Shown: positions 9,015 through 38,961 of the stretch, piece after piece
Position numbering within the stretch: position 1 is the stretch's first letter
Layout: each line of letters begins with the position of its first letter
Assembly (NCBI GenBank): GCA_030750975.1
Contig: JASMHC010000014.1
Span: 310,001-374,000, forward strand
DNA length: 64,000 nt
Reading direction: 5' to 3'
From: Paracoccaceae bacterium
Lineage (GTDB): Bacteria > Pseudomonadota > Alphaproteobacteria > Rhodobacterales > Rhodobacteraceae
The notes under the pieces: model-generated
Database searches by the model: none
Seen by the model: only the letters and a program-made list of their open reading frames with translations
Told to the model about the DNA's origin: nothing
Made by a program: the position numbers and the translations under genes

Positions 9015-9128
9015 AGCGTTTCGAGATCAACTTGAGACGCGAAGTTGATTTCGAAACGCCCGCAACGCCATTAAGTATCGCGCGTTTCGCCAGATTGTTG
9101 AGACTTAACAATATGACGAAACGCTTTA
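9012..9128. repeat. Palindromic intergenic repeat, dimer (copy 3)
   Basis: A 117-bp element with perfect 12-bp terminal inverted repeats TAAAGCGTTTCG. It contains two hairpins in tandem. The first pairs GCGTTTCGAGATCAACTT with AAGTTGATTTCGAAACGC around GAGACGCG; the second pairs GCGTTTCG and ATTGTT with AACAAT and CGAAACGC. The first TAA is the betC stop codon. It is closely similar to the copy at 52445-52561. Confidence 0.9.
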
Positions 9129-9245
9129 GCCGCTGGCGGGTATTGAAACCGCAATCCAAAGGTCAGGGGCGAAGTTGCCCTATGCAGTCCGGTTTTGGGC
9201 CGCGCACATATCTTATTTGCCCCGGTTGGTAAGTATAGTTACCAA

Positions 9246-9295
9246 TTAAGGCGTCTCAAAAATATCCTGAGACGCGCAGTTGAAGTCAAAACGCC
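9246..9295. repeat. Palindromic intergenic repeat, degenerate monomer (copy 4)
   Basis: This segment shares CCTGAGACGCGCAGTTGA followed by AAACGCC with the core of the dimeric copies (CTTGAGACGCGAAGTTGA then AAACGCC), but the left arm and both outer ends have decayed. It lies 23 bp upstream of the chosen start of the hydroxylase gene at 9319, so it forms part of that gene's leader. Confidence 0.55.
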
Positions 9296-9318
9296 AAAGT
9301 CAAGGTCAGGACAAGCCC

Positions 9319-11232: not shown

Positions 11233-11299
11233 CCCAAATCAAGGCTGTTTTTGCCAGCCCTGATAGGCTTTGCGCCGACCCGACGAACGAGGCGCGACC

Positions 11300-13681: not shown

Positions 13682-13745
13682 TCCCCTTCCCTTCGCGCAT
13701 TTACCCTGTAGAAACGAAGACGTGGCTTCCTGCCGCGGGGGTATC

Positions 13746-15814: not shown

Positions 15815-17176
15815 ATGATCAAATCGCTATGGGCCAAGATAACCGGCGCCAGCATCCTGCAAAAGGCGGCGCGCACCACGGCCTATACCGTGATCAATTT
15901 CGGCTCGAGCCAGCTGATCCGGCTGCTGTCCAACCTTGTTCTGACACGCCTTTTGTTCCCCGAAGCCTTCGGGATCATGGCCCTGTCGGGGCTGCTGCTG
16001 ACCGCGCTCAGCCAGTTCTCGGATGTGGGCATAAAAACCTCGATCATCCGCAGCGAGCGGGGCGAGGATCAGGTGTTTCTCGATACCGCATGGTCGCTGA
16101 AGGTCGTCCGGGGTGTCTTCCTGTTCGCCATGGCATGGCTGCTGAGCTATCCGATGTCGATCCTTTATGGCGATCCGATCTTTACCAAAATCGTTCCGAT
16201 GATGGCGATTATCCTGATTGTCGAGGGGCTTTTGCCGACATCGGTCGATCTGGCCTATCGCCACATGGAAATGGGCCGCCTGACCGCGCTTGAAATCGGT
16301 GCGAACCTGATCACCGTCATATCGATGATTTTCTTTTCCTGGCTGACCGGCGATGTCTGGGGTCTGGCCTACGGCACCGTGCTTGGGGCGATCGGCAAGT
16401 TCATCCTGTTCAAGATCTTCCTGCCCGGCCACGGGAATTCCTTTGTCTTCGAACGCCCCGCCATGCGAGAGCTGCTGACCTTCGGCATCTGGATTTTCCC
16501 CAGCACCATCGCAACCTTCATCGCCATGCAGTCCGACAAGTTTCTGCTGGGCATCTACGTGTCGCTGGAAACGCTTGGCATCTACAATATCGGCTATTTC
16601 CTTGCCAGCTTCCCGCTGATGCTGGCGCAGACTTTGGGCGGGCGGGTGATGACCTCGTTCTATCGCAACTCGCCGCCCGGTGAATCGGCGGCGAATTTCA
16701 ACCGTATCCGAAAACTGATCTTTGTTGCCTTTGGCGGGTTAAGCGTTTCCATCATCGTGCTGGTGCTGATCGGCGGCTGGCTGGTCGCGTTTCTTTACGA
16801 CGACCGCTATCTGGAAGCGGGGGTGATGCTGGTGACGCTGACCTCGATGCATATCCTGCAAATTCACCAAATCCCCTATCAGCATGCGGTGCTCGGGCTT
16901 GGCTCGTCGCGGCAGTATTTCACCCTGATCGCGGTCAAGGCTTTGGCGATGATTTCCTGTATCTGGCTGGGTCTGGAATTTTTCGGCCTGCTTGGCGGCA
17001 TCATCGGCCAGGGCGTGGCTTTCGTGATCTCTTACCCTGCGTCGCTGTTCTATGCGATCCGGATGAAGGTCTGGGATCCGCTGTTCGACATCTTCCTGTT
17101 TGCCGTCGCGGCTGTGATCACCTCGACCGCGTGGTTTCTGTATTCCGACCAAATGCAAAGCCTGATTGGTTACTGA
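15815..17176 (+). CDS. Polysaccharide flippase (Wzx/MOP superfamily)
   Basis: A 453-residue integral membrane protein of the oligosaccharidyl-lipid flippase family, which moves lipid-linked oligosaccharides across the inner membrane. About 12 hydrophobic helices are spread over the whole length. The N-terminal TTAYTVINFGSSQLIRLLSN and LVLTRLLFPEAFGIMALSG segments are typical of Wzx/RfbX-type proteins. It begins 101 bp after the glycosidase-like gene and ends about 160 bp before the PKS gene, in the same direction. Together with the glycosyltransferase at 23779 and the Wzz-like gene at 30254 it frames the biosynthetic operon, suggesting that the product is linked to a surface glycan; this link is an inference. 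Confidence 0.87.
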   Translation: MIKSLWAKITGASILQKAARTTAYTVINFGSSQLIRLLSNLVLTRLLFPEAFGIMALSGLLLTALSQFSDVGIKTSIIRSERGEDQVFLDTAWSLKVVRGVFLFAMAWLLSYPMSILYGDPIFTKIVPMMAIILIVEGLLPTSVDLAYRHMEMGRLTALEIGANLITVISMIFFSWLTGDVWGLAYGTVLGAIGKFILFKIFLPGHGNSFVFERPAMRELLTFGIWIFPSTIATFIAMQSDKFLLGIYVSLETLGIYNIGYFLASFPLMLAQTLGGRVMTSFYRNSPPGESAANFNRIRKLIFVAFGGLSVSIIVLVLIGGWLVAFLYDDRYLEAGVMLVTLTSMHILQIHQIPYQHAVLGLGSSRQYFTLIAVKALAMISCIWLGLEFFGLLGGIIGQGVAFVISYPASLFYAIRMKVWDPLFDIFLFAVAAVITSTAWFLYSDQMQSLIGY

Positions 17177-17335: not shown

Positions 17336-20300
17336 ATGCCAACGGATTTCGACAGCAACGCCTATTCGGACGGCGACATTGCCATTGTCGGTATGGCCGC
17401 GCATTTGCCAGGCGCAAAAAACATCGAAACCTTCTGGAAAAACCTTGAAAGTGGCACGGAATCCATTCGCAAGCTCAGCGAAAGCGAGCTGACCAAATCG
17501 GGCGAACCGCTGCATCTGATCCGCAATCCGAACTATGTGCCGGCCGCGGCGGTGCTGGAGGATTTCGAAAAGTTTGACGGAGAGTTCTTCGGCCTCAGCC
17601 CGAAAGAATCCGCGATCATGGATCCCCAGCACCGGCAGTTTCTGGAATGCGCCTGGGAAGCGCTGGAAAACGCCGGCCATCCGCCGGAAAGCGTCCCCGG
17701 CCCGGTCGGGGTGTATGCAGGCTGCGGCATGGGCAGCTATTTCTATTTCAACATCTGCTCGAACCCCGATCTGGTCGATGATACGGGCATGTTCCTGTTG
17801 CGCCACACGGGCAATGACAAGGATTTCCTGTCCACCCGTCTTAGCCATATCCTTGATCTTACGGGGCCGTCGGTGAACATCCAGACGGCTTGCTCAACCT
17901 CATTGGTTGCCACCCATTATGCCTGTCAGGCCCTGCAAAATGCCGAATGCGACATGGCTCTGGCGGGCGGTGTCACCATCGAATTGCCGCATGGGCGGGG
18001 CTATGTCTTTCAGGAAGGCGAAATCCTGTCGCCCGATGGGCATTGCCATGCGTTCGACCACCGCGCCCAGGGCACCGTTTTTGGCAGCGGCGTCGGAGTG
18101 GTGGTTCTGCGCCGGATCGAAGATGCGATCCGCGACGGCGATCATATCTGGGCCGTAATCAAGGGCACGGCGATCAACAATGACGGCGCCTCCAAAGCCG
18201 GATACCTTGCCCCTTCGGTTGACGGACAGGCCGCCGCGATTGCCGAGGCGCATGCGATGGCAGGCGTCAACGCCGATACGATCGACTATGTCGAATGCCA
18301 TGGCACCGGCACCTATCTGGGCGATCCGATCGAAGTGGCCGCCCTGACCAACGCCTTTCGCGAAACCTCGCACGAGACCGGCTTTTGCCGGATTGGCAGC
18401 GTCAAAACCAATATCGGCCATCTGGACACGGCAGCGGGGGTTGCCAGCCTGATCAAGGTCGCACTGTCGCTGAAAAACCAGAGCATCCCGCCGTCATTGG
18501 GGTATGAAGAACCGAACCCGGCGATTGACTTCCCCAACAGCCCGTTTCGCGTCAACAATGCCCTGACCCCGTGGAATTCCCACAAAGGCCCGAAACGGGC
18601 CGGCGTGAATTCGCTGGGTGTGGGTGGCACAAACGCCCATGCGGTGCTGGAAGAGGCACCCGACCGGGGGATGTCGGACGAAACCGACTGGCCGTTCCAA
18701 CTGCTGACCCTGTCGGCACGGTCCGGCGCCGCGCTTGACGATGCCTCGGCCAATATAGCACAGGCCTTGCCCGCCATGCCCGATGTGCCACTGGCCGATA
18801 TCGCATGGACGCTGAAAGAAGGCCGCCGCGCCTTTGACAAGCGCCGTGTCGTGGTTGCCGAAACCCATGCGGAAGCGGCGCAATATCTGAAAGAAAACAA
18901 CACCCGCCGCGTGTTCACCCATTCGGTCGTGTCGGACAATCCCAACGTGGTCTTCATGTTCCCCGGCGGCGGGGCGCAATATGCCAACATGGCCCGCGAT
19001 TTATACGAGACCGAGCCGGTCTTTCAGGACTGGATGGACCGGGGCCTTGAAATCCTGCAAGAACGGCTGGATTTCGACATTCGCGACATCTGGCTGCCCG
19101 ACGAGGGCGGCGAGGCGCAAGCCAACGAGACACTGCGCAAACCGTCCGTCCAACTGCCGCTGATCATGATCACCGAATATGCGCTGGCGCAGTTGTGGAT
19201 GTCCTGGGGTGTGCAGCCAACCGCCCTGATCGGCCACTCGATGGGCGAAAACACCGCCGCCTGCGTCTCGGGCGTGATCTCGTTCGAAGATTGTATCGCG
19301 CTGGTACATCTGCGCGGCCGGCTGTTTGATACGGTCCCATCGGGCGGAATGCTCAGCGTGCCGATCCCGGCCGAAGAGCTGCGGCCCCATCTTGGCGACG
19401 CGCTTGATCTGGCCGCCGAGAACGGCCCGTTCCTAAGCGTGGCCTCTGGCCCGCGCGACGCGCTGGAAGACCTGAAATCGCGTCTCGAAAAAGAGCGGAT
19501 CGAGTGTCAGGACATCCCGATCGATATCGCCGCGCATTCGCGGATGCTGGACCCGATCCTGGAAGAATTCCGCGCCTTTCTGAAAACCCTGCATTTCGAA
19601 GCCCCGTCTATCCCGTTCGTCTCGAACCGCACGGGCGCATGGATCAAAAGCTCAGAAGCGATGAACCCCGATTACTGGGTCGATCACCTGCGCAATTCGG
19701 TCCTGTTCGCCGAGGGCATCCGCACCCTGGCCGAAGACCCCGAGCGGGTGTATATCGAAGTCGGGCCGGGCAAGGCGCTTGCCTCGCTGACACAATCACA
19801 TCCCGATGTGTCGGCCAATCAGGTGATCAGTTCACTGCGCCATGAACAGGACGAGGTCGCCGACGACGCTTACTTCCTTGCCATGCTGGGCCGCTGCTGG
19901 GCGACCGGCATCGACATCGACTGGGGCCAGATTTGGGGCGACCAGAAACGCCACCGCGTTCCGCTGCCCACCTACCCGTTCCAGCGGTCCCCCTATTTCA
20001 TCGAACCGGGCAAGCTGGACCAGCGCAGCTTTGCAGAACCGCCGACACGGCTGCCGAAAATCTCGGACTGGGGCTTCAAACCTGCATGGTGGCCAAAAAC
20101 GGCGGATTGTCCGCTGGACATCGAGGTGGACCTTGAAAACGCCAAAAAAGAGGTCTGGCTGGTCTTTGTCGATGATACCGGCCTTGGCCTGACCGTCGCC
20201 GAAAACCTGCGGGCCGCCGGGCAGATCGTCGTCACCGTCCGCAGCGGAGACGATTTCGTCCGCGACGGGGATCAATCCTATATACTGTCCACCGAACGCG

Positions 20301-23300
20301 GCCGCGAGGGCTATGTCAGCCTGCTGTCCAGCCTGATGAGCCGGGGCCTCGCGCCGACGCGCATCGCGCATTTCTGGCTGACCACGGTCAAGGAAACCTT
20401 TCGCCCCGGCAGCAGCTTTTTCCACCGCAATATCGAACAGGGTTTTTTCAGCCTGACCTTCCTGATGCAGGCCATGGAAGAGGTGTCCCTGCCCAAACCG
20501 GTGCATATCACGGCGATCACCTCGGATTCGATGCAAGTGCGGGATGAACCGCTGCAATATCCCGAAAAGGCGATGATTTCCGGCCCGCTTCGGGTTGCGC
20601 CGCGTGAATTTTCCGACGTGACCTGCAGCCAGCTTGATCTGGGCATATTCTCGGAAAACAAAGGCGCGGATATTGCCGGGCAATTCGCAACCCCGGTCAT
20701 GGAAGAGCTTTTGGCGATCCCGTCCAACACCATCGCTGCCTTCCGCAGCGGGCGCCGTTTCGCGCTGGGTCTGCGGCCCGAAAAGCTGCCGCCGCTGGTT
20801 GGTGGCGACCGGCTGAAAGGTGCCAAGACCTTCTTTATCACCGGCGGTTTCGGCGGCATCGGTCTGTCACTGGCGCGGCATTTCGCCAAGACCAAACGCG
20901 CCAATTTCGTGCTTCTGACCCGCGACGCGATCCCCGAACGCGATCAGTGGACAGACTATCTGACCACCGTCGCCCCAACCGACCGCACCGCCCTGCGCAT
21001 CGCCGCGATCCGCGAGATCGAGGATTTGGGCGGCCGTGTTCTGCCCTGTACGGCGGATATTTCCAACCTTGAGGAAATGCAGACGGCCATCGAAGCGGCG
21101 AAGGCCGAATTCGGCGGCATTGACGTGGTGATCCACTCGGCCGGTGTGCTGGATGACGGCCCGATCCTCGGGCGTCGGATGGTCGAAACCGAAACCGTGT
21201 TCGCCCCCAAACTGCACGGCACGCAAGTGCTTGAACGGGTCTTCCCCGATGGCAGCGTGAAAGAGATCGTCCTGTTCTCGTCAACCTCGACCATTACGGC
21301 GCCGACCGGTCAGTCCGACTATGTGGCGGCCAATGAATTTCTGAACGCCTATGCCAAAAGCCGCAAAGGCGGCAAAACCAAGGTCACTGCGATCAATTGG
21401 GGCATCTGGTCGGATGTCGGCATGGCGGCCAATGTGGTCAATCCAGAACATTTCGATCCGCAAAGCGTGCCGCCCTCGGATGTGGATGCGCCCTTCTATG
21501 CGCAGGCGCATTTCGACCCCAACGGCAACCGCGCCTTCCTGCGCGATTTCAGCGCCACCGAAGACTGGGTGTTCGACGAACATCGCACCATTGACGGCAA
21601 GGCCCTGTTGCCGGGCACCGGCTATATCGAACTGGTGGCCCAGGCCCTGCGCGAACAGCGCGAACAGATGGATTATGAAATCCAGAACCTGTTTTTCCTC
21701 AGCCCGTTCCACATCCCCGACGGCCAGACCCGCAGGCTTCGAAGCGTCGTGGCCCGCAGCGACAAAGGCTATCGCTTGCGGGTTCAGTCCTCGGACACCG
21801 GGCTTGCTGACCCCGAATGGATGAGCCACGCCGAGGCGGATATTCTGATTTCCGGACAAACCCGCCCTGACCCGATTGATCTAAGCGTGATCAAGGCCCG
21901 GCTGGACGGCCCTGCCGCCCCCGGCAATGGCGATCCGATTGCCAGCCCTCAGGAACACCACCTGCGCTTTGGTCCGCGCTGGCGCACATTGATCCGCCAA
22001 TCCATCGGTGAAGGCGAAGGCCTGGCCGAGCTGCGCCTGAACCCGGCGGCCTTGGAAGATGACGGTTTCATTCTGCACCCTGCCCTGCTGGACATTGCAA
22101 CGGGCTGGGCAATCCGGCTGGTGCCGGGTTATTCGGGCCAGAACCTCTGGGTTCCGATGTCCTATCAATCGGTGCGCGTTCACGCGCCGCTGACCGACGA
22201 GATTTTGAGTTGGGCGCGCCTGTCGCCGCGCCAGACCGATTTCGGCACCATCGCCAGCGTCGATGTGACGATCTGCGACAAGCACGGCAATGTTCTGGTC
22301 GATGTGTTCGGGTTCCAGATGCAAAAGCAAGAGACCGCCGCATTCCTGACCAGCGAAACGCTGCTGAATGCCCCGACCGAAAAAGACAGGCTGACCGAAG
22401 GCCAAGCCGGTGGGGCGGCGAATGCCCGCCTGAAACACCAGCTATCACAGGGCATTCCCAGCGCCGACGGGGTTGTCCTGTTCGAACGCGCGCTTGAACG
22501 GGACATGCCGCAGATCATTGTCAGCTCGATGGATATCAACAAGCTGGTTGAAAACACCACGACCGAGGCGCTTGATCTGCTGAAAAACACCGCAACCAGT
22601 TTCCAGCGCCCGAAACTGGAAAGCGAATATGCCCAGCCCACAACCGAGGTCGAACGCACGCTGGCCGAATTCTGGGAAGACCTGCTTGGCGTGCAGGATG
22701 TGGGTGTTGATGACAGTTTCTTTGAACTGGGGGGGCATTCGCTGATCGCCGTCCGCCTGTTTGCACAGATCCGCAAATCTTTCGGCGTCAACTTCCCGAT
22801 CTCGGTGCTGTTCGAAGCACCGACCATCCGCGCCTGCGCCAGGCTGATCGACGCCCAGATCGGGCGCAACGAAACCTCGGCCGCAAAAGATGACAGTGGC
22901 AAGGGCGAACGCCGGTTCAAGCACCTCGTCGCCATGCATGACGGCGAAGGCGGGCCGCGCAACCCGTTCTTCCTGGTGGCCGGCATGTTCGGCAATGTGC
23001 TGAACCTGCGCCATCTGGCCCATCTGCTGGGCGAGGATCGTCCCTTTTATGGCCTTCAGGCACGTGGCCTTTTGGGCAATGACACGCCGCACGAAACGAT
23101 TGAAGCGGCGGCCAGGGATTATATCGCGGAAATGCAGGCGGTTCAGCCGCATGGCCCCTATTACATCGGCGGTTATTCCGGCGGTGGTATCTTTGCGTTG
23201 GAAGTGGCGCAGCAACTGGCAAAACAGGGCGAGCATACCCAATTGCTGGTGCTGCTGGACACACCGTTGCCACAACGCCGGCCGGTTGAACGAATCGACC

Positions 23301-23782
23301 GCTTGTGGATCCAGTGGCAGAATATCCGCGAACGCGGCTGGCGTTATCCGCGCGAATGGCTTGCGGCGCGGTCGGCCTGGAAAGCCAGGGTCCGGGAAAA
23401 GGCCGAAGGGCTTGCGCAGGAAACATCCGACCACCAGTTCCACAGCGCCGAGATCGAGGCCGCTTTCCTTAAGGCCACCGAGATCTATTCGGTTTCGCAA
23501 TGGCGCGGGGCGACCGTGCTGTACCGGCCGCCGATCCGTGGCAAATGGCACGTATCCAAGGGGCGTCTGATCAGTGACGAGCGCCACTATGTGTTCCACG
23601 ACAATGACTGGGGTGATCTTCTGCCCGCGCTGACCATCACCGAAGTGCCGGGCGATCACGACAGCATGGTTCTGGAACCCAATGTGCGCGTTCTGGCCAA
23701 CCGGCTGCGCCAGGAGCTTGAAAAAGCCGAGCGCGAGGCCCTGCTGGCCGGTCCCGGCGAATATGCGAGGGCGGCGGAATGA
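17336..23782 (+). CDS. Single-module type I polyketide synthase (KS-AT-KR-DH-ACP-TE)
   Basis: A 2148-residue modular PKS. KS, residues 14-441: catalytic C186 (TACSTS), H322 (CHGTGT) and H362 (NIGH). AT, about 538-821: S635 in GHSMGE, with IAAHS in the specificity loop, so malonyl is likely but not certain. KR structural half about 915-1160, then the NADPH site TGGFGGIG near 1168 and Y1329 in SDYVAANEF. DH about 1400-1670: H1416 (DEHRTIDG...LLPG) and D1586 (HPALLDIA). ACP: S1802 in ELGGHSL. TE about 1860-2130: S1948 (GYSGGG) and H2108 (PGDHDS). All catalytic residues are present. DH follows KR, the reverse of the usual DH-KR order. No ER or docking domain is seen. It is the first gene of a four-gene operon; the stop codon overlaps the glycosyltransferase start by 4 bp. 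Confidence 0.93.
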   Translation: MPTDFDSNAYSDGDIAIVGMAAHLPGAKNIETFWKNLESGTESIRKLSESELTKSGEPLHLIRNPNYVPAAAVLEDFEKFDGEFFGLSPKESAIMDPQHRQFLECAWEALENAGHPPESVPGPVGVYAGCGMGSYFYFNICSNPDLVDDTGMFLLRHTGNDKDFLSTRLSHILDLTGPSVNIQTACSTSLVATHYACQALQNAECDMALAGGVTIELPHGRGYVFQEGEILSPDGHCHAFDHRAQGTVFGSGVGVVVLRRIEDAIRDGDHIWAVIKGTAINNDGASKAGYLAPSVDGQAAAIAEAHAMAGVNADTIDYVECHGTGTYLGDPIEVAALTNAFRETSHETGFCRIGSVKTNIGHLDTAAGVASLIKVALSLKNQSIPPSLGYEEPNPAIDFPNSPFRVNNALTPWNSHKGPKRAGVNSLGVGGTNAHAVLEEAPDRGMSDETDWPFQLLTLSARSGAALDDASANIAQALPAMPDVPLADIAWTLKEGRRAFDKRRVVVAETHAEAAQYLKENNTRRVFTHSVVSDNPNVVFMFPGGGAQYANMARDLYETEPVFQDWMDRGLEILQERLDFDIRDIWLPDEGGEAQANETLRKPSVQLPLIMITEYALAQLWMSWGVQPTALIGHSMGENTAACVSGVISFEDCIALVHLRGRLFDTVPSGGMLSVPIPAEELRPHLGDALDLAAENGPFLSVASGPRDALEDLKSRLEKERIECQDIPIDIAAHSRMLDPILEEFRAFLKTLHFEAPSIPFVSNRTGAWIKSSEAMNPDYWVDHLRNSVLFAEGIRTLAEDPERVYIEVGPGKALASLTQSHPDVSANQVISSLRHEQDEVADDAYFLAMLGRCWATGIDIDWGQIWGDQKRHRVPLPTYPFQRSPYFIEPGKLDQRSFAEPPTRLPKISDWGFKPAWWPKTADCPLDIEVDLENAKKEVWLVFVDDTGLGLTVAENLRAAGQIVVTVRSGDDFVRDGDQSYILSTERGREGYVSLLSSLMSRGLAPTRIAHFWLTTVKETFRPGSSFFHRNIEQGFFSLTFLMQAMEEVSLPKPVHITAITSDSMQVRDEPLQYPEKAMISGPLRVAPREFSDVTCSQLDLGIFSENKGADIAGQFATPVMEELLAIPSNTIAAFRSGRRFALGLRPEKLPPLVGGDRLKGAKTFFITGGFGGIGLSLARHFAKTKRANFVLLTRDAIPERDQWTDYLTTVAPTDRTALRIAAIREIEDLGGRVLPCTADISNLEEMQTAIEAAKAEFGGIDVVIHSAGVLDDGPILGRRMVETETVFAPKLHGTQVLERVFPDGSVKEIVLFSSTSTITAPTGQSDYVAANEFLNAYAKSRKGGKTKVTAINWGIWSDVGMAANVVNPEHFDPQSVPPSDVDAPFYAQAHFDPNGNRAFLRDFSATEDWVFDEHRTIDGKALLPGTGYIELVAQALREQREQMDYEIQNLFFLSPFHIPDGQTRRLRSVVARSDKGYRLRVQSSDTGLADPEWMSHAEADILISGQTRPDPIDLSVIKARLDGPAAPGNGDPIASPQEHHLRFGPRWRTLIRQSIGEGEGLAELRLNPAALEDDGFILHPALLDIATGWAIRLVPGYSGQNLWVPMSYQSVRVHAPLTDEILSWARLSPRQTDFGTIASVDVTICDKHGNVLVDVFGFQMQKQETAAFLTSETLLNAPTEKDRLTEGQAGGAANARLKHQLSQGIPSADGVVLFERALERDMPQIIVSSMDINKLVENTTTEALDLLKNTATSFQRPKLESEYAQPTTEVERTLAEFWEDLLGVQDVGVDDSFFELGGHSLIAVRLFAQIRKSFGVNFPISVLFEAPTIRACARLIDAQIGRNETSAAKDDSGKGERRFKHLVAMHDGEGGPRNPFFLVAGMFGNVLNLRHLAHLLGEDRPFYGLQARGLLGNDTPHETIEAAARDYIAEMQAVQPHGPYYIGGYSGGGIFALEVAQQLAKQGEHTQLLVLLDTPLPQRRPVERIDRLWIQWQNIRERGWRYPREWLAARSAWKARVREKAEGLAQETSDHQFHSAEIEAAFLKATEIYSVSQWRGATVLYRPPIRGKWHVSKGRLISDERHYVFHDNDWGDLLPALTITEVPGDHDSMVLEPNVRVLANRLRQELEKAEREALLAGPGEYARAAE

Positions 23783-24801
23783 CACAAACCAAGGGCCGCG
23801 TTTTGGTCGTTCTGCTGAACTACAAAACCGCGCAAATGACGGCAGAGGCCATGCATCGCACCCGCGAGGCGATGCGAGGCGTGCCCGGAGAAATCATGGT
23901 GGTCGACAATGACTCGCAAGACGGGTCTTTCGAATTCCTGTCCGACGCCATCGCCGCAATAGACCCGGGCGACGGGCTGACGAAATGCCATATTCTGCAA
24001 TCCGACCACAATGGCGGCTTTGGCTACGGCAATAATGTCGGCATAAGCTGGGGGCTGGACCATGGCGGGTTTGATTATTTCTACATCCAGAATTCAGATG
24101 CGTTCCCATCCGATTCCGCCATTTCGGCTTTGCATGAATTCCTTGATGATCACCCACATGCGGGCTTTGCAGGCAGTCATTTGCATGGCGAAGACGGCGA
24201 GCCGCATTTCACCCAGTTCCGTTTCCCCTCAATCGCGTCGGAATTTGAAGGCAAGGCCCAGCTCGGCCCGATCACACGCCTGCTGAAACGCTATCAGGTG
24301 CCGCTGTTTGACCTGTCCAAGACCGAACCCACAAAAATCGGCTGGATCGCCGGAGCCAGCCTGATGGTGCGCCGACAGGTGTTCGAAGATATCGGGCTTT
24401 TTGACGAAAACTATTTCCTCTACTTCGAAGAGGTCGATCTGTGCCGCCGCGCCAAGCTGGCCGGGTGGGACACTTATTATGTGCCAACCAGCCGGGTTGT
24501 GCATCTGGGATCGGTCTCGACCGGCATGCTCAGCTGGCAGCGGGTGCCGGAATACTGGCTGGATTCGCGGCTTTACTATTATTCGAAGAATTACGGCAAG
24601 CTTTACGCCACGCTGGCGACGATCGCGGCGATTTCGGGCGGGATGATTGCGCGGCTGCGCATGGCGCTTGGGGGGCGCAAAGTCAAAGATCCGGATCATT
24701 TCCTGCGCGATCTGACCCGTCATTTCCTTCGGTCCATCTGGACCCCGACGGCCCGTAGCTCTGAAACGGCCACCCCTGTCAAGAAACCTGCCGAGGTTTA
24801 A
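23779..24801 (+). CDS. Family 2 glycosyltransferase (rhamnosyltransferase-like)
   Basis: A 340-residue GT-A fold glycosyltransferase. The N-terminal strand VLVVLLNYKTAQMTAEAM and the nucleotide-binding VVDNDSQDGSFEFL are followed by DHNGGFGYGNNVGISW and an acceptor-site region WIAGASLMVRRQVF and YFEEVDLCRRAKLAGW, the pattern of rhamnosyltransferase-type family 2 enzymes. A short hydrophobic stretch near residue 280 may attach it to the membrane. It overlaps the PKS gene by 4 bp (ATGA) and the NRPS gene follows 2 bp after its stop, so all three are translated from one message. It probably adds a sugar to the assembly-line product or to a lipid-linked acceptor; donor and acceptor are unknown. 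Confidence 0.88.
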   Translation: MTQTKGRVLVVLLNYKTAQMTAEAMHRTREAMRGVPGEIMVVDNDSQDGSFEFLSDAIAAIDPGDGLTKCHILQSDHNGGFGYGNNVGISWGLDHGGFDYFYIQNSDAFPSDSAISALHEFLDDHPHAGFAGSHLHGEDGEPHFTQFRFPSIASEFEGKAQLGPITRLLKRYQVPLFDLSKTEPTKIGWIAGASLMVRRQVFEDIGLFDENYFLYFEEVDLCRRAKLAGWDTYYVPTSRVVHLGSVSTGMLSWQRVPEYWLDSRLYYYSKNYGKLYATLATIAAISGGMIARLRMALGGRKVKDPDHFLRDLTRHFLRSIWTPTARSSETATPVKKPAEV

Positions 24802-24803
24802 TC

Positions 24804-27800
24804 ATGGTTCCTTTGTCCTTCGTTCTTTTTGGCAATCAGTCGCTTCTGGTGCAATGCGCCGGAAAAATCCTGCAAAGCGGTCATCGCATCACGGCGGTGG
24901 TCTCGCATGCGAAAGATATCACCGACTGGGCGGCGGCCAATGGTATTCGGGTGCTGGAACCCGGGGCCGACCTGCCTGCCAAATTGCGCCACACCCGTAT
25001 CGACTGGCTGTTAAGCATATCCTACCTGTCGATCATCCCCGACGAGGTATTGTCGCTTGCCACCCGAGGTGCGGTGAATTTCCACGACGGACCACTGCCC
25101 GCCTATGCCGGGCTGAACACGCCGGTCTGGGCGCGGATCAATCAGGCCGCGACCCATGCCATTACCTGGCATTTCATGGAAACCGGCATTGACGAGGGCG
25201 ATATCCTTCTGTCCCGCAGCTTCGCGATTGACGAAGAGGATACGGCCTTTTCGCTGAACGCCAAATGTTTCGAGGCCGCGATTGACAGCTTTGACGAATT
25301 GCTGGTCAAGCTGACCTCGGGCGATGTGACCGGCAAGGCGCAGGATCTAAGCCGCAAGGGGTATTATGCGCGGCACCAAAGGCCCGACAATCTGGGGTTT
25401 ATTGATTTCTCCAAACCGGCGGACACTATCATCGCGCTGGTGCGCGGGCTGGATCACAAGAATTACTGGAACCCGCTGACCACCGCAAAAATCGCGGTGA
25501 ACGGGCAGATATTCACGGCTCAGGGCGTTGAAAAAACCGATCAGACCGGTGTGGCTGGCCGCGTGACCGGTGTGACGGGCAATAGCCTGACAGTGGCTTG
25601 TGCCGACGGGGCGGTCAGGCTGACCGGCCTGCGACTGGCGGACGGAACCAGCCCGGACGCCCTGCTGTCGGATATCATCGCCGAGGGCGCAATTGTCGAA
25701 ACACCTTCGGGCCGCGCGCTTGAGGTGCTTGGCCAGCAACTGGCCCGGAACGACAGCCACTGGCGCAAGCGTCTGGGTGATATGCCCGGCGCACGGCTGC
25801 CCTTGGCCGGTGGTGACGCGGGCGCGGATGATCTTCACGCGATCCCGCTGAATAACGCAAACGCGGTCGACAGCGGGCGTTTTCTGGCCACGGTCGTGTT
25901 CTGGGCCTGCCGCCAGCAGGAAGAATTCACCGCCACCCTTGCATTGGCGATGAATTCCGAAGCGCCGGTCGCCGGGCTGGTCAATGGCTGGGTGCCGGTC
26001 ACGTTTTCCAAAGACGGCAGCACGGTCGCCGATCTGCTGGCGCTCACATCGCAGGCCTTTGAAGACGCTGCTGCCAGGGGGGGCTTTGCCACCGACCTGC
26101 TGGCCCGCGCACCGGAACTGGCCGGGCTTGCCACACCCGATATCGGCATCAGCCATGACGGCCACTTTGTCGACGGCTCGGCGCTGACCATTCACACGGA
26201 CACCCAAACCCTGACCTATTCCGCCGCGCGGCTTGCCCCGGCAACGGCGGAATTGCTGGCCAACCGGTTGGATCACGTGCTGTCGCTGATGGCAACGGCC
26301 TCGGCGGATCAAAGCCTGGATACGCTGGCCGACACCGCCCCGGAAGAGGTTCAGCGCATGCTGGGCCTGTGGAACCAGACCGATCTGGACTATGACCGCT
26401 CGGCGTTGATGCATCACCCGTTCGAAGCAGCCGTCAAGGCCAACCCCAACAAGACCGCCTTGGTTTTCGAGGATCAGAAATTTACCTTTTCCGAGCTGGA
26501 CCGCAAGGCCAATGCCATCGCCGCCAACCTGAAAGACGCGGGCGTTCAGGCCGGTGATATTGTCGGGCTGTGCATCCACCGCTCGCCCGAGATGGTGATG
26601 GCCGCCCTGGCGATCCTGAAAGCGGGCGCGGCCTATCTGCCGCTTGATCCCGCCTATCCCAAAGAGCGGACCGAATTCTGCCTGTCCGACAGCCAGGCCA
26701 AGGTGGTTCTGACCCATTCGGCGGTCGCCTCTGCGCTGCCCATCGCGTCGGTGCCGCAGATACAGGTGGACAAGCTGGATACTGGCACGGGCGATGGATT
26801 GACGACCGAAGCATCGGCCCATGACCTTGCCTATCTGATCTACACATCCGGTTCGACCGGCAAGCCCAAGGGGGTGATGATCGAACACCGCAACGTGTCG
26901 AATTTCTTCGCCGCGATGGACCAGCGGATCGATCACGATCCGGCGGGGGTCTGGCTGGCCGTCACCAGCCTGTCCTTTGACATATCGGTGCTGGAAATCT
27001 TCTGGTCGCTGGGCCGCGGTTTCAAGCTGGTGCTGACCGGTGACGAGGGCCGGACCGTGCTGTCCAACGGCCCTCTGCCCGCGCAGGTCGAAGGCATGGA
27101 TGTCAGCCTGTATTACTGGGGCAATGACGATGGTCACGGCCGCGACAAGTACAAGCTGTTGCTTGAAGGGGCGCAATTCGCCGATCAGAACGGCTTTCAC
27201 GCGGTCTGGACGCCCGAACGGCATTTCCATGCTTTCGGCGGCCCTTACCCCAACCCGTCCGTCACCGGTGCGGCTGTGGCGGCGGTCACGCGCAATCTGG
27301 CTGTTCGGGCAGGCAGTTGCGTCACGCCCTTGCACCACACCATCCGCATAGCCGAGGAATGGGCCGTGATCGACAACCTGACCAACGGTCGGGCAGGATT
27401 GGCGGTGGCCACCGGCTGGCATCCGGATGATTTCGTGATCCGGCCTGAAAACACCCCGCCCAATAACCGCGATGCGATGTTCCGGCAGATCAGCGACCTG
27501 CGCAAACTCTGGGCCGATGAACCCGTCGCCTTCCCCCGTGCCGATGGCACCATGCACGAGGTGATCACCCAGCCACGGCCCGTGTCGAAAGACCTGCCGA
27601 TCTGGGTGACGATCGCGGGCAATCCCGAAACATGGCGTCAGGCGGGCGAGGTCGGGGCAAATGTGTTAACCCACCTTCTGGGCCAGAGCATCCCCGAGGT
27701 TGAAGACAAGATCAAAATCTACCATCAGGCGTTGCGCGATAACGGCTATGATCCGGCGGATTTCAAAATCACCCTGATGCTGCACAGCTTCATCACCGAT

Positions 27801-29420
27801 GACCGCGAAAAAGCCCGCGATATCGCCCGTGGTCCGATGAAAGACTATCTGCGGGCCGCCGCCGGATTGGTAAAGCAATATGCCTGGGCCTTCCCCGCCT
27901 TCAAACGCCCCAAGGGCGTGGACAATGCGTTCCAGCTGGATCTTGGCATTTTGGAAGAGGACGAGCTTGAGGCGCTCCTCGAATTCGCCTTCCTGCGCTA
28001 TTTCGAAGACTCCGGCCTGTTCGGCACCATTCACGACGCCATGGCACGGATCGAGCAGGTCAAACGGATCGGCGTGACCGAAGTGGCCTGCCTGATCGAT
28101 TATGGCATTGAGAAGGACACGGTGCTTGAAGGGCTCAGGCCGCTGGCCGAAGTGGTGCGCCGCTGCAATCAGGGGGCCAAGCTGGACGAGGGCGATTTCT
28201 CGGTCGCGGCCCAGATCGTGCGCCATAAAGTCACCCATCTGCAATGCACCCCGTCGATGGCGCGGATGTTCCTGATGAACGACGAAACCCGTCAGGCCTT
28301 GGGCGGCATTTCCAATATCATGCTGGGCGGCGAAGCCTTGCCTGGTGCCTTGGTGGAAGAAATGAAAACCGTCACCCAGGCCCATGTGCAAAACATGTAC
28401 GGACCGACCGAAACCACCATCTGGTCCACCACCGCGACAGCGGACGGCGGCGACGGTACGGTTTCCATCGGCACGCCGATTGCGAATACAAAGGTTTACG
28501 TGCTGGACGGCAATCGCAAACTGGTGCCGATCGGCACCCCGGGCGAGCTGTGGATCGGCGGCGAAGGCGTGGCCCGAGGCTATTGGAACCGGGCCGGTCT
28601 GACCGAACAGCGCTTCGTGGCCGACCCGTTCTCGGACAAGCCCGATGCGCGGATGTATCAGACCGGCGATCTGGTGGCGTGGAAGGCGGATGGGACGCTT
28701 GATTACATCGGCCGCACGGATTTCCAGGTGAAACTGCGCGGCTATCGGATCGAGATCGGTGAAATCGAGGCGATGATGGATTCGCATCGCGACATCACCC
28801 AATCGGCTGTGGTTGTCCGGCTGGAAAACGAAAGCGACCAGCGTTTGATCGGGTATTTCACCTCGGCCGGTGGCATAGAAGAATCCAGCCTGCGGGCCTT
28901 TCTGTCCGACAGGCTGCCCCCGCATATGGTGCCCTCGCGGATGATCCATGTGGACCGGATGCCTTTGACACCAAACAAGAAGATCGACCGCAAAGCCCTG
29001 CAATCACGCCCGCTGGGCAACGCGGCGGCAAAGACGGCGGCGGTTTTGGCGGACAGCGCGGCCGACAGCTCGACCATGCAGGCCGTCGGCGAAATCTGGA
29101 AGGCGGTGCTGGGGGTGTCACAGGCAGCCCCCGCAGACAATTTCTTCGAATTGGGCGGGCATTCGCTGCTGGCGGTTCAGACCCATCGGGAAATCCGCGA
29201 AAAATTGTCGGTGCCCGGCCTGTCGATCACCGATATCTTCCGGTTCCCCGTACTGAAAGACATGGTCGCCCGCGTCGATGAACTGGCCGGAGCGCCCAAG
29301 GCAAGGGAATTGGCCGCAACCCCCGCCGGTCAACCGCCGCATATGGACGCCAAAAAAGCCGAAATGCGCAGCAGCGCGATTGAGCGCCGCAAAGCCTTGC
29401 GCGCCAAGAGACGCGGGTGA
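24804..29420 (+). CDS. NRPS: formyltransferase / partial C / split A with luciferase-like monooxygenase / PCP
   Basis: A 1538-residue one-module NRPS. Residues 1-240 are a formyltransferase domain with the Asn-His-Asp triad N92, H94 and D130, followed by its C-terminal barrel to about 300. Residues 310-510 resemble the C-terminal lobe of a condensation domain but lack HHxxxDG. The adenylation domain runs from 530 to 1400: A3 is YTSGSTGKPKG near 680 and A4 is SFDISVLE; a flavin-dependent luciferase-like monooxygenase (about 760-1120, MupA/Atu3671 type) is inserted before A5 NMYGPTETT. Pocket residues read D, I, L, Q, M, G, M, I, W, K, close to known glycine codes. The PCP has S1454 (GGHSL). 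No thioesterase or reductase follows. The PPTase gene overlaps the stop by 4 bp. Confidence 0.9.
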   Translation: MVPLSFVLFGNQSLLVQCAGKILQSGHRITAVVSHAKDITDWAAANGIRVLEPGADLPAKLRHTRIDWLLSISYLSIIPDEVLSLATRGAVNFHDGPLPAYAGLNTPVWARINQAATHAITWHFMETGIDEGDILLSRSFAIDEEDTAFSLNAKCFEAAIDSFDELLVKLTSGDVTGKAQDLSRKGYYARHQRPDNLGFIDFSKPADTIIALVRGLDHKNYWNPLTTAKIAVNGQIFTAQGVEKTDQTGVAGRVTGVTGNSLTVACADGAVRLTGLRLADGTSPDALLSDIIAEGAIVETPSGRALEVLGQQLARNDSHWRKRLGDMPGARLPLAGGDAGADDLHAIPLNNANAVDSGRFLATVVFWACRQQEEFTATLALAMNSEAPVAGLVNGWVPVTFSKDGSTVADLLALTSQAFEDAAARGGFATDLLARAPELAGLATPDIGISHDGHFVDGSALTIHTDTQTLTYSAARLAPATAELLANRLDHVLSLMATASADQSLDTLADTAPEEVQRMLGLWNQTDLDYDRSALMHHPFEAAVKANPNKTALVFEDQKFTFSELDRKANAIAANLKDAGVQAGDIVGLCIHRSPEMVMAALAILKAGAAYLPLDPAYPKERTEFCLSDSQAKVVLTHSAVASALPIASVPQIQVDKLDTGTGDGLTTEASAHDLAYLIYTSGSTGKPKGVMIEHRNVSNFFAAMDQRIDHDPAGVWLAVTSLSFDISVLEIFWSLGRGFKLVLTGDEGRTVLSNGPLPAQVEGMDVSLYYWGNDDGHGRDKYKLLLEGAQFADQNGFHAVWTPERHFHAFGGPYPNPSVTGAAVAAVTRNLAVRAGSCVTPLHHTIRIAEEWAVIDNLTNGRAGLAVATGWHPDDFVIRPENTPPNNRDAMFRQISDLRKLWADEPVAFPRADGTMHEVITQPRPVSKDLPIWVTIAGNPETWRQAGEVGANVLTHLLGQSIPEVEDKIKIYHQALRDNGYDPADFKITLMLHSFITDDREKARDIARGPMKDYLRAAAGLVKQYAWAFPAFKRPKGVDNAFQLDLGILEEDELEALLEFAFLRYFEDSGLFGTIHDAMARIEQVKRIGVTEVACLIDYGIEKDTVLEGLRPLAEVVRRCNQGAKLDEGDFSVAAQIVRHKVTHLQCTPSMARMFLMNDETRQALGGISNIMLGGEALPGALVEEMKTVTQAHVQNMYGPTETTIWSTTATADGGDGTVSIGTPIANTKVYVLDGNRKLVPIGTPGELWIGGEGVARGYWNRAGLTEQRFVADPFSDKPDARMYQTGDLVAWKADGTLDYIGRTDFQVKLRGYRIEIGEIEAMMDSHRDITQSAVVVRLENESDQRLIGYFTSAGGIEESSLRAFLSDRLPPHMVPSRMIHVDRMPLTPNKKIDRKALQSRPLGNAAAKTAAVLADSAADSSTMQAVGEIWKAVLGVSQAAPADNFFELGGHSLLAVQTHREIREKLSVPGLSITDIFRFPVLKDMVARVDELAGAPKARELAATPAGQPPHMDAKKAEMRSSAIERRKALRAKRRG

Positions 29421-30097
29421 GCGTGCCCAGCGCCGCATTGCTGTCCGACGCCAAAGCCCTGTTGAACCGGCTTTCCGGCGCGGTCCCCGATTTGCAGGTC
29501 GGTCTTCGCGGCGTTCACGCGGCCCTGCCGCCTTTGTATCCGGACGAACGCGCCCTGCTGTCGCCCCGTGCGGTCAGCAAGCGCCGTGCCGAGTTTCACG
29601 CGGGCCGCATTGCCGCGCGGGATGTGTTGGCAGCCTTGGGCATTGTGGATTTTCCGCTGCTCAGGCTCGACAACCGCGCCCCGCTCTGGCCCGACGCCAT
29701 CAAAGGCAGCCTAAGCCATACCGATGATGTTGCCTGCGCGATTGCCCTGCGCTCGGACCGGCCCGTTGGGGTGGATCTGGAACGGAACGCCCCCCTGTCG
29801 GCCGAGGTTGAAAACGCGGTATCCGACGCACAGGAACGCCGCGCATTCAGCGAACACACATCGCCCGCGCGGATCGTGTTCAGCGCCAAGGAAAGCGTCT
29901 ATAAATGCATTTCAGGTCAGGTCGGCCGGGTGGTGGATTTCTCTGAGGTGGTCATCGACCCTGTTACACCCGACACCTTCCACGCCCGTGCCAAAACCGA
30001 TCTGTCCGGTCGCGCCCTGCCCGATCAGATTGTGGCCAGAGGGCGGGTGGCATGCTCGGACCTGCATATTCTGACCTATGCCCAAAGCGCCTTGTGA
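29417..30097 (+). CDS. 4'-phosphopantetheinyl transferase (EntD/Sfp superfamily)
   Basis: A 226-residue enzyme that moves the phosphopantetheine arm of coenzyme A onto carrier-protein serines. Motifs are GSLSHTDDVACAIA, VGVDLE (Mg-binding Asp and Glu) and FSAKESVYKC, in the order and spacing of EntD-type transferases; the N-terminal RRAEFHAGRIAARDVL also fits. It starts with GTG inside the NRPS stop codon (GTGA), so it is translationally coupled. Its obvious clients are PCP S1454 of the NRPS and ACP S1802 of the PKS. A dedicated PPTase at the end of the operon supports the cluster being a complete, working unit. Confidence 0.93.
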   Translation: MSVPSAALLSDAKALLNRLSGAVPDLQVGLRGVHAALPPLYPDERALLSPRAVSKRRAEFHAGRIAARDVLAALGIVDFPLLRLDNRAPLWPDAIKGSLSHTDDVACAIALRSDRPVGVDLERNAPLSAEVENAVSDAQERRAFSEHTSPARIVFSAKESVYKCISGQVGRVVDFSEVVIDPVTPDTFHARAKTDLSGRALPDQIVARGRVACSDLHILTYAQSAL

Positions 30098-30253: not shown

Positions 30254-31522
30254 ATGCATCAGTTTGAAATCTTCTCGGGCGCGGCACGCGCTTTCAGCAA
30301 CCGGATCGTCATCATGCTGATGCTGTTTATCGTCGGCATCATCGCCACGATCGTCTATACCATTCAGCAGCCGCAAGTGTATCGCGCGACCGCCGTGATC
30401 CAGATTGAAAGCCCGCAAATCTCGGAAGCGGTGGCCGGCAGCATCGGCACATCCGCCGCGCACCGTTTGCAACTGATCGAACAGCGCATGATGGCGCGTG
30501 ACAACCTGGCCGCCATTATCGACCGTCACGGCCTGTTTACCGATGATCCGGACATGAGCATCACCGAAAAGGTCAACCTGCTGCGGGAAAGCATCTCGAC
30601 CCAACAGATCGCCGGTGAAGATGCAGGCATCGGCGCGGTCTCGGTTCCGGCGGGGCTGATCATCAGCGTTCAGCTGGAAGATCCGAACAAGGCTGCCGAT
30701 CTGGCCAATGATCTGGTCAACACCGTGATCGAACAAAACGACAGCCGCCGGTCCAGCCAGGCCCGCGAAACCCTGGCGTTCTTTGAAGCTCAGGAAGGCG
30801 AATTGCTTGGCTCGATCGAACGCCTCGAGGCGCGGATTGCCGAATTCAAGCAGGTCAATGCCGAAGTGCTGCCGGAAACCGTCACATCGCTGATCGGTCA
30901 GGAAGCGGATTTCCAAAGCGCCATTCTGGATATCGACCAGCAAATCGTGACATTGCGCAGCGGCAACAGCCGCCAGCGGGCCGAATTCGTCGACCGTCAG
31001 GTTGCCATTCTGGACGAACAGAAAATGCTGCTGACCGAACGTCTGCTTGGTGTGCGCAGCCTGCTGCAACGCGCCCCCGCCGTGGAACGCGAACTGGCCC
31101 AGATGAGCCGCGAACTTGGCTTGTATCAGGGACAGTATGATGTTGTGACCGCCAACCGCGCCGAGGCCGAGCTGTCGCTGTCGCTGGAAGACCGCAAACA
31201 GGCCGAGCGTTTCGAAATCCTCGAAACCGCGCTGCCACCGGAATATCCGGTTTCAACCAGCCGCCGCATGATCTTTTTGATCGGTGCCGTGCTGTCGCTG
31301 GTCGGGTCGGGTGCGATCATCTTCTTCTACGGCAACCTCAGCCCGATCGTCCGCAATGCGCGTGATCTGAAAGACGAGCTGGACCTGACCCCGGTCGTGA
31401 CCATCCCGACCATCGTCAGCCCGCGCGAAGCCTTCGGAGAACGTCTGGTGATCGCGACCATGCTGGCCCTGCTGTTCATCGCAATCCCGCTGGTCACACT
31501 CCAGATCGTCGCGGGCGGATAA
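30254..31522 (+). CDS. Wzz/GumC-like polysaccharide chain-length protein
   Basis: A 422-residue inner-membrane protein of the Wzz family, which sets the length or assists export of surface polysaccharides. There is a first membrane helix at about residues 19-37 (VIMLMLFIVGIIATIVYTI), a large periplasmic part with YRATAVIQIE and long heptad-rich helices (about 170-310), and a second helix near 340 (MIFLIGAVLSLVGSGAIIFF). An extra helix lies at the C terminus (IATMLALLFIAIPLVTLQIV). No Walker A motif is present, so there is no fused tyrosine kinase. It is 156 bp after the PPTase gene in the same direction and is followed by a strong terminator, so it may close the region's transcription unit. 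Confidence 0.85.
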   Translation: MHQFEIFSGAARAFSNRIVIMLMLFIVGIIATIVYTIQQPQVYRATAVIQIESPQISEAVAGSIGTSAAHRLQLIEQRMMARDNLAAIIDRHGLFTDDPDMSITEKVNLLRESISTQQIAGEDAGIGAVSVPAGLIISVQLEDPNKAADLANDLVNTVIEQNDSRRSSQARETLAFFEAQEGELLGSIERLEARIAEFKQVNAEVLPETVTSLIGQEADFQSAILDIDQQIVTLRSGNSRQRAEFVDRQVAILDEQKMLLTERLLGVRSLLQRAPAVERELAQMSRELGLYQGQYDVVTANRAEAELSLSLEDRKQAERFEILETALPPEYPVSTSRRMIFLIGAVLSLVGSGAIIFFYGNLSPIVRNARDLKDELDLTPVVTIPTIVSPREAFGERLVIATMLALLFIAIPLVTLQIVAGG

Positions 31523-31653: not shown

Positions 31654-31740
31654 TGGTGCGGTCGAGAAGACTCGAACTTCCACTCCGGTTAAGGAACAGC
31701 GACCTCAACGCTGCGCGTCTACCAATTCCGCCACGACCGC
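31654..31740 (-). tRNA. tRNA-Leu (GAG)
   Basis: An 87-nt tRNA on the minus strand with encoded CCA. The acceptor arm GCGGTCG pairs with CGACCGC, the D loop contains TTGGTAGACG, the anticodon loop TTGAGGT gives GAG, a long variable arm typical of leucine tRNAs follows, and the T arm has GTTCGAGTC. No duplicated fragment of it was noticed nearby, so it is not an obvious integration site. Confidence 0.95.
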
Positions 31741-38898: not shown

Positions 38899-38961
38899 GG
38901 CTTTAGCCATTCGTTAACCTCGTTCGCTCAATCTGCCCCAGTTAATCCGGCGGGTGGGGTG

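Follow-up and report, generated by a model that had tools for sequence, protein, structure and literature searches.

We propose that a four-gene operon of a Paracoccaceae bacterium encodes a short assembly line, built from a nonribosomal peptide synthetase (NRPS) and a polyketide synthase (PKS), which would make an acyl group derived from N-formyl-glycine for a cell-surface or secreted polysaccharide. The operon lies in a stretch of 64,000 nucleotides (NCBI GenBank assembly GCA_030750975.1, contig JASMHC010000014.1, positions 310,001 to 374,000 of the forward strand), which we call the window and to whose first letter all plain positions refer. From sequence comparison we put the probability of this reading at roughly 0.62. 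The link to polysaccharide is well supported; substrates, single extension, place of oxidation and acceptor of the thioesterase are predictions about the chemistry.

The operon consists of four intact open reading frames at 17336-30097, all on the + strand, for the PKS, a family 2 glycosyltransferase (GT2), the NRPS and a phosphopantetheinyl transferase (PPTase). The PKS and GT2 genes overlap by 4 bp, a 2-bp gap separates GT2 from NRPS, and the NRPS and PPTase genes overlap by 4 bp; with such spacing, the four genes are probably co-translated. Parts, order, conservation and context of the operon are read directly from the sequences compared.

The operon lies mostly in Wzx/Wzy loci

In the window, the operon is preceded by genes for a protein c2, considered below, and a Wzx flippase, and is followed by a Wzz-like gene:

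15815..17176, + strand, Wzx-type polysaccharide flippase (PF13440, 8.4e-37; PF01943, 3e-22)
30254..31522, + strand, Wzz-like polysaccharide chain-length protein (PF02706, E 3e-4)

The flippase gene next to the operon is itself a mark of a Wzx/Wzy system. To see how regular this setting is, we scored the best 80 of at least 582 candidate relatives, mostly from Rhodobacteraceae, with three Hydrogenophaga loci and one from a metagenome-assembled genome of Hyphomicrobiales, each locus covering at most 27 kb. Neighbors were counted as tblastn homologues that score above 70 bits and lie no more than 10 kb from the matched stretch, using nine gene families defined on 20 relatives, so that the 80 loci form a separate but related sample. 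A Wzz-like gene was found at 60 of the 80 loci, and Wzx, GT4 and a second GT2 (family c17) at 52 each. Another glycosyltransferase (c6) follows with 48, a CpsD-like kinase with 45, WecG with 37, Wzy with 36 and a priming glycosyltransferase with 20. Because eight loci span 20 kb or less, these counts are lower bounds. At least two of the nine Wzx/Wzy exopolysaccharide families accompany the operon at 75 of the 80 loci. Of the five exceptions, L082 has a ManC-like gene (mannose-1-phosphate guanylyltransferase-like) just upstream and also encodes an acyltransferase and a hexapeptide protein. Four flanking genes of the window, taken as a comparison set, each occur at 0 of the 80 loci.

An earlier, sequence-only reading of this DNA had presented the four genes as a stand-alone pathway and guessed at a small glycosylated or glycan-bound molecule. 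The guess of a glycan-bound product is strengthened by the place of the operon in Wzx/Wzy exopolysaccharide loci. The four genes do form a unit, but the functional unit is larger and extends into these loci. Since the operon sits there, its product is expected on the polysaccharide; that culture extracts would yield it as a free small molecule is less likely.

Spread, conservation and an apparently broken locus

The operon is a widespread unit in Rhodobacteraceae and is also found in Hyphomicrobiales, Hydrogenophaga and Deinococcus. A full-length NRPS in a single reading frame is present in 20 of 60 other genomes of the same family, at 50-56% identity; the one genome of the same genus lacks it, and no full-length match occurs in any of 40 genomes that represent other families within the class. 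Some copies are damaged or incomplete: that of genome G010 is split into two reading frames (G010:C3:523961-528498) by pseudogene formation or sequencing error, that of G029 is cut by the contig end and that of G023 is fragmented. Relatives of the operon also sit on plasmids.

Such a patchy and partly plasmid-borne distribution, with the same-genus genome lacking the unit, is what would be expected if the operon and the polysaccharide genes merely hitch-hiked, or met by chance, in one mobile accessory region and shared no function. However, the linkage survives a protein divergence of about 50%, crosses phyla and persists where neighbors are rearranged, and the four other flanking genes of the window did not travel along to any of the 80 loci. 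The frequency of Wzx (52 of 80) is also far above chance, according to a rough estimate from source-genome rates only. We hold such a coincidence to be highly improbable.

The inner structure of the operon is conserved as well. The PKS is present at 79 of the 80 loci, and the contig of the 80th starts inside the region. A GT2 homologue in the orientation of the NRPS starts upstream of it, no more than 2.5 kb away, at all 80 loci, and at 72 the PPTase lies just downstream of the NRPS, with gene order kept. PKS and NRPS matches are 991-1152 bp apart, and the distance from NRPS start to PPTase start is 4547-4880 bp (72 loci). In eight close pairs each, dN/dS of PKS and NRPS is 0.04-0.18; close pairs give 0.07-0.21 for GT2 and 0.05-0.35 for PPTase. 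Pairwise protein distances of PKS and NRPS correlate with r 0.89 (n=72; maximum of 200 permutations 0.09), those of NRPS and Wzz-like protein with r 0.77 (n=59; maximum 0.14) and those of NRPS and Wzx with r 0.55 (n=49; maximum 0.17).

In relatives, polysaccharide genes such as Wzy or WecG often adjoin the PKS. In the source genome, homologues of Wzy, priming glycosyltransferase, WecG, glycosyltransferase c6 and kinase stand together at C14:406787-412815, on the contig of the window and 65-71 kb from the end of its cluster; therefore, the locus seems to have been broken here, the PKS half retaining Wzx, the Wzz-like gene and a glycosidase. The distant group includes Wzy and the priming transferase (C14:410491-412815), both characteristic of a Wzx/Wzy system. 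Across the 3.19 Mb of the genome, the Wzy query has one match, Bac_transf two and PF13440 two, of which the window Wzx is the stronger (130.1 versus 24.5 bits).

The presumed assembly line

The proteins of the operon and their domains, assigned with Pfam and NCBIfam unless stated otherwise, are as follows (all + strand):

17336..23782, type I PKS of 2148 aa, one module KS-AT-KR-DH-ACP-TE
17375..18505, ketosynthase (KS) domain, Cys186, His322 and His362 identical in 73 sequences
18950..19876, acyltransferase (AT) domain, Ser635, motif IAAH identical in 73 sequences
20828..21415, ketoreductase (KR) domain, Ser1316 and Tyr1329; Asp1274 of an LDD-type motif identical in 73 sequences
21521..22333, dehydratase (DH) domain, His1416 and Asp1586, downstream of KR
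22658..22849, acyl carrier protein (ACP), Ser1802
22982..23680, thioesterase (TE) domain, Ser1948, Asp1975 and His2108
23779..24801, GT2 glycosyltransferase of 340 aa, between PKS and NRPS
24804..29420, NRPS of 1538 aa, formyltransferase - linker - split adenylation (A) domain - peptidyl carrier protein (PCP)
24804..25646, formyltransferase domain, Asn92, His94 and Asp130 (Pfam Formyl_trans N+C)
26421..27041, N-terminal part of the A domain, to motif A4 (FDISVLE, named by eye)
27102..28154, inserted luciferase-like monooxygenase dependent on flavin mononucleotide (FMN) (TIGR04020; PuwE 6ket, E 9.1e-96)
28200..28982, C-terminal part of the A domain, Lys1393
29082..29276, PCP, Ser1454
29417..30097, Sfp-type PPTase of 226 aa, GTG start (4PPT_N and ACPS)

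The domain content given by the sequence-only reading agrees with these assignments, and its further statements of tight gene spacing, intact active sites and an own PPTase are borne out by the overlaps and gap given above and by the residues that follow; a glycine-like A domain is supported by a code read by eye. The four genes of the window show no disabling change. All 15 catalytic positions tested in the PKS are identical in 73 complete sequences (72 of the 79 PKS loci and the window; seven were left out as incomplete or short). In 80 NRPS sequences (79 of the 80 loci and the window) the A-domain Lys, the PCP Ser and the Asn, His and Asp of the formyltransferase are identical, a count that is partly circular for Asn and His, both belonging to the peptide pattern by which the loci were found. 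Glu and Lys of the PPTase are identical in 73 of 73 sequences and its Asp in 72 of 73. The only other match to the ACPS superfamily in the genome is a 145-aa frame elsewhere. With intact KS, AT, ACP, A and PCP active sites and a releasing domain, the operon has the make-up of a hybrid NRPS-PKS assembly line.

The NRPS is best read as an initiation module, because no condensation domain was matched by Pfam in any of 20 sequences (E <= 1) and the motif HHxxxDG occurs in residues 200-560 of none of 80 sequences. An unassigned linker of about 240 residues separates formyltransferase and A domain; residues ~290-530 may be a vestigial condensation half-domain, since their C-terminal edge resembles a condensation domain by eye, although Pfam matched none in the 20 sequences. 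A formyltransferase with Asn-His-Asp, placed N-terminal to A and PCP and with no recognizable condensation domain, is the arrangement of a formylating initiation module, and the best match in the Protein Data Bank (PDB) is LgrA, 6mfz. The specificity residues of the A domain, read by eye across both parts, are D-I-L-Q-M-G-M-I, identical at 6 of 8 positions in 80 sequences. They resemble DILQLGLI, which we take to be a glycine code, a string not found in the literature searched; so read, the A domain appears glycine-like. The inserted monooxygenase is assigned firmly, as residues 767-1117, between two AMP-binding stretches, score 462.5 bits against TIGR04020 (cut-off 244.45).

The glycine-derived starter would then be handed over to the PKS, as suggested by the adjacency of the two genes, the missing condensation domain and the PDB, in which the PKS of entry 8xju is the best match to ours. 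Entry 8xjz offers an almost equal match and also contains a peptide synthetase chain; a KS accepting an aminoacyl chain would fit both matches. Conservation of Asp1274 suggests a B-type KR by the usual rule. Known AT motifs are HAFH and YASH; IAAH matches neither, so the extender unit is uncertain.

Type I PKSs of the RkpA kind have been suggested to provide a lipid anchor in capsule clusters, and the PKS and NRPS might likewise produce a lipid-like carrier or anchor for the polysaccharide. The KR-DH module could act iteratively, and RkpA and WcbR do lie inside capsule clusters, according to the available text of PMC3908369. Nevertheless, a polar formyl-amino start unit suits an anchor poorly, and the profile search found no enoylreductase (ER) domain in the PKS. 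The genome further encodes two priming enzymes of the Bac_transf type, for which undecaprenyl phosphate is the normal substrate. An anchor is, in our opinion, a quite unlikely product.

Distant relatives and the possible acceptor

In distant relatives, gene order is looser and the setting mostly stays the same. Polysaccharide genes surround the relatives in annotated plasmid neighborhoods of Ruegeria, Aminobacter, Paracoccus, Shinella and Parasedimentitalea. PKS and NRPS are transcribed divergently in Aminobacter and Shinella, where they enclose no GT2 gene, and a distance of about 9 kb sets the PPTase apart in Paracoccus. Homologues of Wzx and WecG accompany the Rhizobium grahamii locus. WecG recurs at the three Hydrogenophaga loci, together with GT4, glycosyltransferase c6 or priming-glycosyltransferase homologues, and a Methylobacterium locus has Wzy_C, GT1, FkbM and a Wzz/CbiA protein (both matches of this last protein fall just below the Pfam cut-offs). 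In a Nostoc relative, the NRPS is matched in its A-monooxygenase part, not in the formyltransferase, and the PKS in a KS-AT part; no polysaccharide genes are shown around it.

On a plasmid of Deinococcus actinosclerus, a member of another phylum, the same functions are divided into a separate formyltransferase gene, an A-monooxygenase-PCP protein and a KS-AT-KR-DH-ACP protein; no PPTase match was found at the locus. Neighbors are PGA_cap, Polysacc_synt_2, GT1, annotated CapK and sugar-transferase genes. In place of the TE, this PKS (L158:20324-26986) carries a C-terminal condensation domain with HHxxxDA. Because condensation domains link acyl chains to nucleophiles, such an exchange favors acyl transfer over simple hydrolysis. 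We see about even odds that polysaccharide is the natural acceptor, i.e. that in at least two phyla an oxidized, unsaturated acyl group derived from N-formyl-glycine is loaded on the repeat unit of a Wzx/Wzy polymer by a TE or condensation domain.

The Aliiroseovarius sp. M344 plasmid (L155:17992-31731) presents a different case. There, an additional NRPS module is attached to the NRPS-PKS pair, and genes in the vicinity encode exosortase XrtD, a VPLPA-CTERM protein and an acetylxylan esterase; the pair may serve as the start of a longer assembly line. This relative, standing outside a Wzx/Wzy locus, speaks for a glycosylated small molecule that is made as a free product (an antibiotic, a signal or a metallophore) and exported by the MOP-family flippase, the polysaccharide setting being incidental. 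NRPS-PKS pairs usually yield free metabolites, and a hydrolyzing TE would release an acid. Monooxygenase-bearing NRPSs related to ours occur in siderophore clusters. NRPS/T1PKS clusters of roseobacters and Paracoccus are also read as secondary-metabolite clusters in the available parts of PMC8273931, PMC11225332 and PMC9728324. On the other hand, Wzy, priming glycosyltransferase, Wzz-like protein and WecG, none of which a free compound needs, recur in several gene orders and in a second phylum. No TonB receptor, siderophore or iron-uptake gene was found among the 20 flanking proteins scanned in the window, which tells against a metallophore, and no TonB receptor or iron-uptake gene in the seven annotated plasmid neighborhoods, whose gene tables are incomplete. 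With no receptor or uptake genes in the neighborhoods scanned, we rejected a siderophore cluster, and we regard a free product of any kind as unlikely.

Accessory proteins

The protein encoded upstream of Wzx might act on the finished polymer:

13722..15713, + strand, c2, probably secreted GH-A-like TIM-barrel glycoside hydrolase with RTX-like tail (AF2/Foldseek)

No Pfam match was obtained for c2. Its AF2 model (mean pLDDT 79) retrieves GH-A-type glycosidases in Foldseek, the best with E 2.7e-6, at listed TM-scores of up to 0.30 (model) and 0.54 (target). Two glutamates shared by all of 20 sequences, E298 and E462, come after strands 4 and 7 by count, as in the GH-A clan; the RTX-like repeat tail and the motifs were read by eye. 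On this model, c2 is a candidate for a new glycoside hydrolase family. In several relatives, c2 is extended at the N terminus by an SGNH-like domain in which GHSL and DxxH motifs occur; this domain also stands alone as family c29. The c29 model (mean pLDDT 88) matches the folds of a putative platelet-activating-factor esterase, a CE3 carbohydrate esterase, a lipopolysaccharide acetyltransferase domain and PatB, all weakly (three with E <= 0.001, best 5.3e-4). If the models hold, a glycosidase and a partner resembling carbohydrate esterases or acyltransferases would fit an acylated polymer.

Possible model

In the model we suggest, the PPTase would first arm the carrier domains. The A domain would load glycine onto the PCP, the formyltransferase would formylate its amine with 10-formyl-tetrahydrofolate, and the embedded FMN monooxygenase would oxidize the glycine unit at C-alpha or N. 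The KS would take this starter and add one malonyl-type unit; after reduction by KR and dehydration by DH, a small chain similar to 4-formamido-2-butenoyl would result. Possibly, the acyl group is a variant with an N-hydroxy-formamide, metal-binding or cross-linkable. The TE would pass the chain to a hydroxyl or amine of a sugar, or free it for transfer, and GT2 would build or extend the acyl-bearing sugar. Wzx would then flip the repeat unit on its lipid, polymerization would fall to Wzy and the Wzz-like protein, and the GH-A-like glycosidase and SGNH esterase/acyltransferase-like proteins would trim or edit the decorated polymer.

Several points weigh against this reading. Firstly, both the transfer of the acyl group to its acceptor and the place of oxidation are conjectural. 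Secondly, the locus counts are not independent, as the 80 best-scoring loci share ancestry, and the distance correlations may be mere species-tree signal, kinship included. Five of the 80 loci have none or one of the nine families (three of them known as stretches below 20 kb), and no Wzx/Wzy genes are in view at the Aliiroseovarius locus. The Wzz-like protein of the window scores 21.5 bits with PF02706, below the Pfam cut-off of 25.5. The sole genomic match to Poly_export (Wza-type), above its cut-off, is on contig C16, away from the genes of the locus. Finally, the fold matches of c2 and c29 are modest.

If our assumptions are nevertheless true, the orphan NRPS/T1PKS unit of Rhodobacteraceae would be a tool for tailoring the sugar coat and not an antibiotic pathway, and the coat may serve biofilms and life on algae. 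Natural-product assembly lines and exopolysaccharide loci, annotated separately so far, would be joined, and a new kind of polymer substituent would be predicted. It would also explain why screening of extracts may miss the product.

Surroundings in the window

GC content is 0.525-0.625 across the window and 0.556-0.625 across the cluster; with no clear GC step, a recent island, as judged by composition, was rejected. A tRNA-Leu(GAG) gene (31654-31740, - strand), directly after the Wzz-like gene, is a possible island boundary. Upstream, at 7506-13681, lie genes for a choline-sulfatase-like sulfatase, a phenol-hydroxylase-like flavin adenine dinucleotide (FAD) enzyme and a phosphoenolpyruvate-synthase-like protein. 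These and a LytTR gene, each at 0 of the 80 loci, were rejected as pathway members. A 620-aa GT2 with an MshEN domain (38959-40821) is outside the cluster.

Comparison with known systems

PKSs in capsule clusters, formylating NRPS modules and monooxygenase-bearing NRPS modules are already known. We found no description of NRPS-PKS pairs as a regular component of Wzx/Wzy loci within the literature searched, mostly papers outside subscription (including the available parts of PMC4359443, PMC8383342, PMC12609847 and PMC3102044), where a polysaccharide-linked PKS-NRPS was not found. Carriers or likely carriers of the operon appear in PMC4062626, PMC8273931, PMC11225332 and PMC9728324, whose available parts treat NRPS/T1PKS as secondary-metabolite clusters and give neither product nor link to polysaccharide. 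Plasmid pCP157_02 of P. marcusii harbors a hybrid NRPS/T1PKS cluster (PMC8273931, in part); in what we take, judging by host and size, to be the same plasmid, NZ_CP065894.1 (225 kb, from a Cancer pagurus isolate), the NRPS is in two pieces. In P. inhibens T5 a PKS and one NRPS are one locus tag apart, while the printed PKS/NRPS tags of two other strains are not adjacent (PMC4062626, available text). The orphan NRPS/T1PKS Inhi_1972/Inhi_1974 of this species is likened to the operon by description only.

In rhizobial and Burkholderia capsule clusters, RkpA and WcbR are type I PKSs, as the accessible portion of PMC3908369 has it. By gene context they are like the PKS described here, a type I PKS among surface-polysaccharide genes; unlike them, our operon has Wzx/Wzy-type neighbors. 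To our knowledge, RkpA and WcbR have no NRPS partner, formyltransferase or monooxygenase.

The NRPS shares its formyltransferase - A - PCP start with LgrA of linear gramicidin synthesis. It differs by the ~240-residue linker and the monooxygenase inserted in the A domain, and its product presumably goes to a PKS, not to a condensation domain. Inserted monooxygenases are found in the glycine A domains of MtaG and MelG (myxothiazol and melithiazol), which work at the end of the chain and produce an amide. Our NRPS has the same insertion in an apparently glycine-type A domain, but it is equipped with a formyltransferase and appears to act at the start of the chain. With this start and no recognizable condensation domain, chain-terminating amidation of the MtaG/MelG type was ruled out as the principal explanation. 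The monooxygenase itself is a clear member of the MupA/Atu3671 family (TIGR04020), akin to PuwE (6ket).

The TE of mycobacterial Pks13 releases its product on polyols, preferably trehalose (PMC9210659, available text). Unlike our operon, Pks13 makes mycolic acids and involves no NRPS, and the PKS of the window is not a member of its family (631.9 bits with model NF040607, cut-off 2100). The likeness is one of mechanism: Pks13 performs one elongation cycle and hands the product over by its TE, as we propose for the PKS of the window.

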